Origin: Psychrilyobacter atlanticus DSM 19335
GTDB taxonomy: Bacteria; Fusobacteriota; Fusobacteriia; Fusobacteriales; Fusobacteriaceae
Reading direction: 5' to 3'
Length of the DNA stretch: 64,000 nt
Assembly (NCBI RefSeq): GCF_000426625.1
Contig: NZ_KE384548.1
Location: 248,001 to 312,000, forward strand
Made by a program: the position numbers and the translations under genes
In this document: positions 26,791-46,606 of the stretch, in pieces
Position numbering within the stretch: position 1 is the first letter of the stretch
Layout of the letters: each line of letters begins with the position of its first letter
The notes under the pieces: generated by a model
Told to the model about the DNA's origin: nothing
Database searches by the model: none
What the model saw: only the letters and a program-made list of their open reading frames with translations

Positions 26791-26807
26791 CAATTATAAA
26801 ATTGAAT

Positions 26808-26916
26808 AGAAACTTCGGGGCAGGGTGTGATTCCCTACCGGCGGTTATAGTCCGCGAGCGTAAGCTGAACTAGTGAAATTCTAGTACCGACAGTATAGTC
26901 TGGATGATAGAAGTTA
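26808..26916 (+). ncRNA. FMN riboswitch (RFN element)
   Basis: The aptamer shows the conserved RFN blocks in order: CTTCGGGGCAGGGTG, ATTCCCTACCGGCGGT, AGTCCGCGAGC, a variable arm ending GTGAAATTC, then GTACCGACAGT and GTCTGGATG followed by AGAAG, which closes the outer stem. It senses flavin mononucleotide and lowers expression of the downstream riboflavin genes when FMN is abundant. Confidence 0.97.
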
Positions 26917-27034
26917 TTTAATAAAATTTTAATTTATAGTTTAAAATGTTTTTCCTTTATGGGGTATTCTGAAATAGAACCATATGGAAGTCTTTTTTTA
27001 GGAAAGTATAAATTAAAAAAATTATTAGAAGTCT

Positions 27035-44300: not shown

Positions 44301-44404
44301 CTATTTAATTTTTCATAATTTTTTTTAAAGTTTAGGAAATGTACGAAATGAAATTTTTAAAAAATGTCTGTCTATTTAAAGTATTTTAAGGTTTTGAAAA
44401 AAGA

Positions 44405-44445
44405 AAAAAGAACCCTTAAACCTATATGATTTAAGAGTTCTTTTT
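44405..44445 (-). terminator. Terminator of the receptor/peptide operon
   Basis: On the minus strand AAGAACTCTTAAATCATATAGG folds back on TTTAAGGGTTCTTTTTTC; it starts right after the peptide stop. Confidence 0.8.
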
Positions 44446-44583
44446 TTAGTTAAGTTCAAATGTGATTTCAGATATGTTAGCTGGGACTTTAGGAGCTCTT
44501 CTTCCCTGACCGTCATCTTTATTAGCAAAAGTAATGCTAAAGAGTAATAGGACACCTAAAAAAATTAAATATTTTGTTTTCAT
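44446..44583 (-). CDS. Exported 45-residue peptide, candidate signalling pro-peptide
   Basis: ATG 44583 stands 6 nt after GGAGGAA. The product begins MKTKYLIFLGVLLLFSITFA, a signal peptide with a likely cut after TFA, leaving about 25 residues (NKDDGQGRRAPKVPANISEI and a short rest). Its start is only 19 nt after the stop of the HTH-TPR gene, in one operon closed by a terminator. Receptor followed by a short secreted peptide is the Rap-Phr/PlcR-PapR (RRNPP) arrangement, in which a processed C-terminal piece re-enters the cell and binds the TPR protein. That role is inferred. Confidence 0.75.
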   Translation of the reverse strand: MKTKYLIFLGVLLLFSITFANKDDGQGRRAPKVPANISEITFELN

Positions 44584-44602
44584 TGAAATTCCTCCTTTAA
44601 AT

Positions 44603-45811
44603 TTATAATGGTATCTTCTGAATCAGAAGGCTGGCTTCATATTCTAAAGAATTATTTATATAGAATTTTAATATGTATGTCAAGAAATCATAATCCATCA
44701 TTTTTTTTGGTATTCTGCTAATTATTTTTATCAATCCCTGCTGTTTTAACGGCTGACTATCATGGAGTAAAACAAGTTGTTTAATGGAATCTAGATATTT
44801 AATTGGGTTAAAATGAGGATTGTCAAAATTTATAGGAAGTGAAATTTCTTTTTCAAATGCATTTATAGCTTTTTTTTGCTCTCCTAAATATAAATAAGCT
44901 AATCCTATATTCCAATAAGTTTGATATAATATTTTATTTTTTAATTCTTTAAGTATATTTTCGAGTTTATTAAGAGTAATCTTTACCAGTATTTCATTTT
45001 TCATCTCTCTGGCACAGGAAATAATGTTGATATAACAAATTTCTAAATCATGATAATTTGATGGGTCACTGACTCTTTTTTTAAAATATTCAATGGATTT
45101 GTCATATTCGCCTAAGTTTTGACAACAGATCCCCAGATTATTGTATGAGTGATAGTAGTGTTTTGTAATCTCTGGCATATTTACAAGAACCTCAAAACAT
45201 GGGACAGCTTTCTTCCATTTTTCGGTTCTTAAAAGGTTAACTCCGGTATTGTAAGCTAAGAGAGCCTTTGTTTTATATGGAGCTATATCGATCTGTTTTT
45301 TATATCTCAGATATATATCATAGGTAAGTTCTAATTTTTCCAGTCTGATGATTTCAATTAAGACAGAGTAGAAAATATCAGAGCAGGAGAAATTATTTAA
45401 CAGGTCATAGTAGATCTTTAAAGCTTCTTCTTTCCTGTCTGTCCTCTGATTATGTTTGGCTATAATATATCGGTATCTGCAGCTATGAACTTCTTTTTTT
45501 AGTTCAAACTTATTTATTTCTTCTTGTTTTTCAGTGGAATAGATACTTTTATTTATAAGACTTTTGTTGACTAATTGTTCCAGCTCCTGCTGGGGTGGAA
45601 TATATAGGTCTTCTGTAGTGATTATCTTATTTATATTTTTTTCTTTAAATATTTTATTAAGTGAAATAACTAAATATGGTAGATGTTTTGGTTTTAAAGG
45701 TGTTTTTCCGCTTCTGATCTTGTACAGTAGAGACAGGCTCATTTTTGGATTCTCCAATTCTTTAATTCCAATTTTATGCTCTTTTATAAGTTCAAATATT
45801 TTATTATTCAT
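44603..45811 (-). CDS. HTH-TPR regulator, RRNPP-like receptor
   Basis: 402 residues from ATG 45811 (AGGAGGG upstream); an earlier in-frame ATG at 45853 has no such site. Residues 1-60 resemble a small helix-turn-helix domain (GIKELENPKMSLSLLYKIRS). From about 115 on there are TPR-like helix pairs: ALKIYYDLLNNF, KWKKAVPCFEVLVN, YYHSYNNLGICCQNLGEYDK, and QTYWNIGLAYLYLGEQKKAI. This is the fold of RRNPP quorum-sensing receptors. The next gene encodes a secreted short peptide. A promoter and short RNA start divergently upstream, a possible target. Confidence 0.78.
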   Translation of the reverse strand: MNNKIFELIKEHKIGIKELENPKMSLSLLYKIRSGKTPLKPKHLPYLVISLNKIFKEKNINKIITTEDLYIPPQQELEQLVNKSLINKSIYSTEKQEEINKFELKKEVHSCRYRYIIAKHNQRTDRKEEALKIYYDLLNNFSCSDIFYSVLIEIIRLEKLELTYDIYLRYKKQIDIAPYKTKALLAYNTGVNLLRTEKWKKAVPCFEVLVNMPEITKHYYHSYNNLGICCQNLGEYDKSIEYFKKRVSDPSNYHDLEICYINIISCAREMKNEILVKITLNKLENILKELKNKILYQTYWNIGLAYLYLGEQKKAINAFEKEISLPINFDNPHFNPIKYLDSIKQLVLLHDSQPLKQQGLIKIISRIPKKMMDYDFLTYILKFYINNSLEYEASLLIQKIPL

Positions 45812-45937
45812 AAACCCTCCTAATCGTAGTGAAATTATACAATAAAATCGCAATTTTATATAAATAAAATAAAAAAAGAGTTGTTTTGGAAAAATAAGGG
45901 GTTATAAATTCCAAATTTTATGTTTATATTGTTAAAT

Positions 45938-45966
45938 TTGACAAATTAATTTTAACGACATAATAT
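45938..45966 (+). promoter_or_regulatory. Strong promoter divergent from the HTH-TPR gene
   Basis: TTGACA (45938-45943), 17-nt spacer, TAATAT (45961-45966). It would start about 45973. Confidence 0.8.
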
Positions 45967-45972
45967 ACTAAA

Positions 45973-46070
45973 GTGACCCTTGGGAGAGAGTCGAAAATGA
46001 AAACAATAAATGAAAACTGAGAAAAGAAAATGGGGGGGGCTAGGGCTCTCTTTTTTCTTTAAAATATAAA
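45973..46070 (+). ncRNA. Candidate short RNA beside the HTH-TPR receptor
   Basis: From the promoter just upstream, about 95 nt lead to AGAGAG...GGGCTCTCTTTTTTC, a terminator-like end (arms 45986-45993 and 46045-46051). Only a 7-codon ORF (MKTINEN) lies inside, so it may be a regulatory RNA or an attenuating leader. A run of eight G (46032-46039) precedes the 3' arm, odd in such AT-rich DNA. Confidence 0.5.
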
Positions 46071-46116: not shown

Positions 46117-46215
46117 ATGATTAAAATTATAATTAAAATCTTTAAATTACTATTCGTAACATTAATGTACTGTATATCACTTATTTCATCATTTGTAATA
46201 GCTGATTTTTTTTAA
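46117..46215 (+). CDS. 32-residue hydrophobic peptide
   Basis: GAGGGG lies immediately before ATG 46117 (spacing is short). The product, MIKIIIKIFKLLFVTLMYCI..., is a basic start and one long hydrophobic helix ending VIADFF, like a signal peptide or membrane peptide. In the same direction as the short RNA and the DUF2087 gene. It could be a second pheromone precursor. Confidence 0.45.
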   Translation: MIKIIIKIFKLLFVTLMYCISLISSFVIADFF

Positions 46216-46315: not shown

Positions 46316-46606
46316 ATGTTCGATCAAAAAAAAGTTAATAATTTTTTGGATAAAAATGGTTTATTAAAACTTTATCCTACTAAAAGGAATAAACAGGTAC
46401 AAATTTTAAAATATTTAATAACATTTTTTGAACCTAAAAAAATATACACTGAAAGTGAGGTTAATAAATGTCTGAATAACCTGTCTATTCTTAAGGATAG
46501 TTGTCTTTTAAGAAGAGAATTAATTGATATAGGGTATTTAGAGAGAAGTAAAGATGGAAAAGTTTATTTTTTAAGAGATAATGATGATCATGTTGAAGGT
46601 AAATAA
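46316..46606 (+). CDS. DUF2087-domain protein
   Basis: 96 residues. FLDKNGLLKLYPTKRNKQVQ, then FFEPKKIYTESEVNKCL, then DSCLLRRELIDIGYLERSKD match the DUF2087 pattern (F-D-x-x-G-x-L-x-x-x-P-x-K, YTE-EVN, LRREL), a helix-turn-helix-like domain found in small regulators. AAGGAGGA precedes the ATG. It may be regulated by the neighbouring receptor system; the link is only proximity. Confidence 0.8.
   Translation: MFDQKKVNNFLDKNGLLKLYPTKRNKQVQILKYLITFFEPKKIYTESEVNKCLNNLSILKDSCLLRRELIDIGYLERSKDGKVYFLRDNDDHVEGK

Follow-up and report, generated by a model that had tools for sequence, protein, structure and literature searches.

The window, a stretch of 64,000 nucleotides, encodes on its minus strand an HTH-TPR regulator, referred to below as the receptor, followed by a gene for a small and apparently exported peptide (Table 1). 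A first-pass annotation of this DNA had described an HTH-TPR protein followed after 19 nt by an ORF with its own GGAGG, a signal peptide, a tail of about 25 residues and a terminator, and all of these points proved right.

Table 1. Features of the receptor-peptide locus and its divergent side, in window coordinates.
Feature	Position	Strand	Basis
Intrinsic terminator right behind the peptide gene	44404..44446	minus	19-pair stem and T-run
Pre-peptide, 45 aa, MKTKYLIFLGVLLLFSITFA followed by NKDDGQGRRAPKVPANISEITFELN	44446..44583	minus	ORF; homologous peptides behind paralogues
Ribosome-binding site GGAGG of the peptide gene	44591..44595	minus	Sequence
Receptor, HTH-TPR regulator	44603..45811	minus	ORF with ATG start, 402 aa
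Putative receptor promoter, -10-like TATAAT, poor -35	45834..45839	minus	Sequence; retained in same-genus loci
Inverted repeat resembling an operator, TTTTGGAA-N17-TTCCAA, in the gap that separates the receptor gene from the divergent transcript	45884..45914	none
Putative divergent promoter TTGACA-17-TAATAT	45938..45966	plus	10 of 12 consensus positions, a level that chance also yields (12.9 sites in shuffles, 12 observed); counterparts at L004, L002, L015 and L017
Terminator-like hairpin GAGAG...CTCTC and T-run, ending a short divergent transcript	46032..46053	plus	Similar in L004 and L020
Hydrophobic divergent ORF, 32 aa, MIKIIIKIFKLLFVTLMYCISLISSFVIADFF	46117..46215	plus	Kept in sister species G007, dN/dS 0.04/0.48
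DUF2087 protein, 96 aa, next divergent-strand gene, possible target	46316..46606	plus	Pfam E 1e-20

The receptor consists of an HTH domain (approximately residues 1-57) and a TPR superhelix (approximately residues 65-402), the latter with a Pfam TPR_2 match (E 3e-11), and HTH_3 was detected by Pfam in 15 of 27 family members. The AlphaFold2 model (mean pLDDT 91.7) has the same layout, with an N-terminal helical HTH-like domain followed by the TPR superhelix. Four asparagines (N188, N225, N262 and N301) align at the usual peptide-backbone position of successive TPRs. Asparagines at this position of successive repeats face the groove in TPR proteins, and these four probably do so as well.

The peptide ORF begins 19 nt past the receptor stop codon, and AAAGGAGG precedes its ATG. 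A signal sequence of about 20 residues, which starts with basic residues and continues into a hydrophobic core free of charges and a cleavage-like site TFA/NK with an A-x-A-like end, is followed by the polar mature tail NKDDGQGRRAPKVPANISEITFELN of about 25 residues; the export signal was called by a rule of thumb on hydropathy and charge. A strict scan covered the 34 other genes of the window. Only one lay within 600 nt of a small signal-peptide ORF in either direction, and no gene had such an ORF within the first 80 nt downstream on its own strand. The 64-kb stretch has 6 terminator-like sites where shuffled sequences average 0.6, and the terminator is retained behind most paralogues. As far as sequence can tell, one promoter precedes both the cytoplasmic regulator and the Sec-signal pre-peptide and one terminator closes the unit, albeit the -10-like site of the receptor was absent from the consensus promoter scan.

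Operator and divergent genes

The putative operator lies between the operon and the divergent promoter, with its arms about two helical turns apart. Its pattern has a single match, at this site, in the 3.54-Mb genome of three contigs (backward controls gave 2 and 2), and strict patterns revealed no wider regulon in the genome. Psychrilyobacter carries a chromosome, a chromid and a plasmid (PMC10580919), a set that agrees with the three contigs. Paralogue loci have operators at the same position and with the same arm spacing (about 17 nt) and other arm sequences. Both arms change jointly, and the arm type goes with the HTH type: receptors with the recognition helix SLSLLYKIRSGK have arms TTTTGGAA/TTCCAA or TTTTAGAA/TTCTAA, those with S-TYLTKIKKGH have AAACTGAA/TTCAGTTT, and those with SSTYLSKIKRGH have AAAATGAA/TTCATTTT. 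The CTGAA version occurs in the window's own genome at one paralogue and one relic locus, and Ilyobacter-type loci have another inverted repeat (TTTTTGTCA...TGACAAA) that is kept across two genera.

On the divergent side, the short transcript with its terminal hairpin and the 32-aa ORF are added here, neither having been itemised in the first-pass annotation. The transcript (45967-46053, plus strand) is a possible small RNA or attenuator, and the 32-aa ORF is a candidate second short peptide, small membrane protein or small toxin. A 7-codon ORF in the divergent leader (MKTINEN) was dropped because locus L020 is without such an ORF. Elsewhere in the window an FMN riboswitch was observed (26807-26919, plus strand, 112 bits).

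Divergent neighbours differ between relatives. L017 and L018 adjoin HD-GYP proteins in which the HD and HHE..DG.GYP motifs are intact, L003 and L016 an MFS exporter, and L002 a membrane protein; Ilyobacter-type systems adjoin HD-GYP-like proteins (HHEKWNG.GYRG). Judged by position, these neighbours and those in the window are presumably the regulated genes.

Recurrence, divergence and exchange among relatives

The same genome holds two paralogues of the receptor (69 and 61% identity), each with an exported peptide 14-19 nt downstream, and sister species hold further receptor-peptide copies; the pair is therefore no accident. Relatives were found in 37 of 98 Fusobacteriota genomes, every one within the window's family, the Fusobacteriaceae, and receptors in four other genera have adjacent signal-peptide ORFs. 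No relative was found in phage records or viral contigs.

Ilyobacter polytropus DSM 2926, of the same family and a different genus, is among the relatives with long downstream precursors, which occur in three genomes of its genus and in one genome of another genus and carry 4-7 tandem copies of one short peptide. The unit of I. polytropus is SSRRATSGGWAV, its congeners have SSRRAGSGGWAV and SSRRSGSGGWAV, and the other genus has PSTRRSSGGGWEAVEAT; the units are nearly uniform inside a species and different between species. In I. polytropus the precursor holds seven perfect 36-nt units, and its gene (ILYOP_RS15835) carries no annotation beyond "hypothetical protein".

At some relatives the small ORF lies on the divergent side, with 30 aa at L008 and L076 and 41 aa at L009 and L075. 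At L076 (7278-9082, genome G025) the 30-aa ORF, with NECGTLSRLF as a possible mature part, is followed by a secreted right-handed beta-helix protein. At L075 (4465-8482, genome G009, of another genus) the divergent 41-aa signal-peptide ORF adjoins the receptor relative, and beyond it lie three bacteriocin-like ORFs with a double-glycine leader (MKELQLNGITELNE.EMM.IDGG) together with CPBP/Rce1-like membrane proteins. These three ORFs have weak matches to class IIb bacteriocin models, and the locus possibly represents peptide-controlled bacteriocin production.

As findings that would count against the pair, the first-pass annotation had named homologous receptors with no downstream secreted peptide, or a peptide always absent or out of frame. 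The outcome was mixed. Many more distant HTH-TPR homologues, with lower profile scores and from Fusobacterium-like genera, are without a secreted peptide beside them, and the peptide is out of frame in 3 of 10 same-genus copies; against this, the close clade always keeps the peptide or its remnant, with the sole exception of L006, a tandem receptor copy without its own peptide that adjoins a copy having one. A single clade of peptide-linked receptors was unsupported. The receptor tree, whose deep part is unsure owing to long branches, needs two label changes, and therefore two gains, or one gain with losses, both fit.

The out-of-frame copies involve a homopolymer. Five same-genus peptide genes start with ATG, a poly-A run and TGG; with nine A the peptide is in frame (two genes), and with ten, eight or seven it is out of frame (three genes). 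Runs of 7-10 A after the start codon occur at L002, L005, L015-L018 and others; the window's peptide gene lacks one and reads in frame. The differences in length are compatible with phase variation by strand slippage, with recent decay and with an assembly error in the homopolymer. Between two out-of-frame copies the signal part is still constrained (dN/dS 0.053/0.449). A relic in the window's own genome (L073:1341-1540, C2:55074 region) retains operator and promoter, with the receptor deleted and the peptide remnant out of frame, and receptor fragments are present in G007 and G004.

A further expectation of the first-pass annotation, a fast-changing peptide beside a conserved receptor in homologous loci, was borne out: the tail diverges across copies, and the receptor and the signal sequence are conserved. 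For the window peptide and its 93% identical G007 orthologue, dN/dS is 0.02/0.40 in the signal part and 0.13/0.14 in the mature tail, and for the receptors 0.033/0.29 (HTH 0.007/0.093), all figures being drawn from a small number of substitutions. Across ten pairs of the same genus, similarity between peptides correlates with similarity in receptor columns 140-240 (Mantel r 0.70, p 0.0002) and not with that in the HTH (r -0.05, p 0.57). The correlation with the C-terminal end of the receptor, which lies nearest to the peptide gene, is weaker (r 0.45), so that linkage alone does not explain the covariation of peptide and TPR. Peptide type tracks TPR type, as operator type tracks HTH type.

Natural exchanges show the same division. 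L003 in the window's genome and L016 in G007 occupy the same site beside the same MFS gene. Starting at this gene, they are mostly 93-100% identical across the operator and into the receptor for ~150 nt (the HTH). Identity then drops abruptly, to 53-92% over the TPR region and to 6% between the mature peptides. L003 and L019 exhibit the reverse pattern, with 82% identity in the C-terminal half of the TPR part, 52% in the peptide, 44% in the HTH and a different operator. Since the downstream flanks of L003 and L016 differ too, rearrangement between paralogues is as possible as gene conversion. Whichever the route of exchange, HTH with operator and TPR with peptide behave as two modules in these comparisons, and the natural swaps are the best evidence for a TPR domain that would read the peptide.

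Kinship to known peptide-receptor systems

When the family profile was compared with PDB sequences, the best natural bacterial match was NprR (E 2.7e-10), co-linear over profile positions 75-268 (194 positions). A search of PDB folds with the receptor model returned NprR (Z 17.6) and RapI (Z 17.3), and other TPR proteins equalled or exceeded these scores. The fold alone is undecisive because generic TPR proteins lead this search, as exemplified by LGN (Z 20.9). PlcR and PrgX were absent among the matches listed in the PDB fold search, and PlcR also among the listed sequence matches, which excludes nothing; in a viral fold library, TPR proteins of giant viruses were the only matches. In an AlphaFold2 model of a read-through fusion (the L015 receptor with its TAA read as S, plus its peptide), the peptide was left unplaced with pLDDT below 50. 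NCBIfam scans of the window receptor and its paralogues gave no match to the curated Rgg model TIGR01716 or to any other model of a named RRNPP subfamily.

NprR-NprX of the Bacillus cereus group resembles the window pair in having an HTH and TPR receptor with the gene of a signal-peptide pre-peptide directly downstream. It differs in that the window's host belongs to another phylum and has an outer membrane, the peptide sequences are unrelated, the receptors share about 10% identity in structural alignment, and the window receptor would regulate a divergent gene via its own paired operator. PlcR-PapR likewise joins an HTH-TPR transcription factor to a downstream peptide gene, and PapR is processed from an exported precursor of the 48-residue class. 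However, PlcR uses a single regulon box scattered genome-wide, whereas the operator described here was found only at family loci. Rap-Phr systems include tandem pheromones, e.g. Phr105, with up to eight copies reported (PMC11343458), similar to the seven identical units of the secreted Ilyobacter precursor. Unlike the receptors described here, Rap is without an HTH and known from Bacillota only, and the Fusobacteriota units, which share a conserved RR..SGGW core and measure 12 or 17 residues, are unlike those of Rap-Phr.

A five-part RRNPP signature comprises a small Sec-exported propeptide (10-100 aa), a receptor of 250-500 aa, TPRs C-terminal to the DNA-binding domain, and direct adjacency (PMC10075063). 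The window pair has a receptor of 402 aa, a C-terminal TPR domain, a propeptide of 45 aa (30-105 aa in relatives) and 19 nt between the two genes (relatives being adjacent downstream or divergent), and its propeptide is a putative Sec substrate by the hydropathy rule; on these heuristic calls it would exhibit the same signature as the systems surveyed in PMC10075063 and PMC9765709. It matches no named subfamily, and an RRNPP-like system outside these is its best classification. Both the RRNPP_detector catalogue (PMC10075063) and the survey of RRNPPA evolution (PMC9765709) cover Firmicutes, with their phages and plasmids, only and make no mention of Fusobacteriota, and published surveys did not cover the window's diderm phylum (PMC9765709, PMC10075063, PMC12700828). 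No paper joining RRNPP signalling with Fusobacteriota was found among the open-access papers searched.

The first-pass annotation had proposed an RRNPP-type pair in a Fusobacteriota-like organism. This proposal gains from the recurrence in paralogues and other genera, the fast-changing tail, the covariation of peptide and TPR and the NprR profile match, and the host indeed falls within the family of I. polytropus. We therefore consider it likely that the two genes form a peptide-receptor pair working like NprR-NprX and PlcR-PapR. A wider proposal, which we put forward tentatively and at somewhat less than even chances, is that of a native RRNPP-type communication family of the Fusobacteriaceae, bacteria with an outer membrane, in which DNA-binding/operator modules and sensing/pheromone modules recombine and some pheromone genes are switched on and off by poly-A runs behind the start codon.

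Proposed mechanism and alternative readings

The best reading of the locus is an autoregulated receptor-peptide operon that would also control the divergent transcript. The pre-peptide would leave the cytoplasm, signal peptidase would release the tail, and proteases would trim it into a short signal, which an oligopeptide ABC importer would return to the cytoplasm; the genome encodes 15 OppA-like binding proteins. The short signal would sit in the concave TPR groove, lined by the asparagine ladder, and the bound peptide would alter the action of the HTH dimer on the operator. The receptor would thereby switch the divergent gene and its own operon; depending on the paralogue, the divergent targets would be HD-GYP proteins, an MFS exporter or small membrane proteins. 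A communication system in the full sense, with export, import, binding and a density response, is what we infer.

In a cell with an outer membrane, the signal could travel from one cell to another, or it could do no more than inform the cell about its periplasm, and we know of no route for the peptide through the outer membrane. The pair could then be self-sensing, with the peptide released to the periplasm, largely retained by the outer membrane and re-imported by the same cell as a report on Sec export or envelope state. We regard this as rather unlikely. In its favour, the phylum is diderm, no outer-membrane exporter adjoins the pair among the window ORFs, and the mature part has 20-25 residues. 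Peptides of this length exceed typical free porin cargo. On the other hand, the fast divergence of the tail, the recurrence of distinct types among paralogues and the sudden joint exchange of TPR and peptide between species resemble the pherotype divergence of social signals, and tandem-copy precursors would raise output as in Phr systems (PMC11343458).

That peptide types follow the TPR domain would be unneeded if the small ORF, rather than serving as a ligand, encoded a small membrane protein or a secreted effector (of bacteriocin type or acting on the envelope) under HTH-TPR control. The L075 receptor adjoins a divergent run of bacteriocin-like peptides with CPBP proteins, and the receptor family can therefore neighbour antimicrobial genes. 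Those ORFs, however, are separate from the additional Sec-signal peptide beside that receptor, and no immunity gene adjoins the window peptide. We hold this explanation to be improbable. Even less credence goes to an ordinary XRE-TPR regulator accompanied by a decaying, functionless small ORF that gene duplication has carried along. The out-of-frame copies, the relic locus and the receptor fragments in G007 and G004 could be taken in this sense, but the signal part is under strong purifying selection (dN/dS about 0.05 for the window pair and 0.12 between two out-of-frame copies), the strong SD, terminator and signal sequence are all retained, and other genera have independent peptide genes.

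A peptide-receptor pair of RRNPP type is thus our preferred reading. Its paralogues constitute a natural domain-swap series for mapping TPR residues to the peptides they would read, and in I. polytropus a named culture is usable for testing. So far, nearly all catalogued cases of imported-peptide quorum sensing come from Gram-positive bacteria and their phages. If the reading is true, a diversified Fusobacteriota family puts this mode of signalling into a diderm phylum, raises the question of how the signal passes the outer membrane, and makes it testable whether RRNPP signalling has a greater age or mobility than hitherto assumed.
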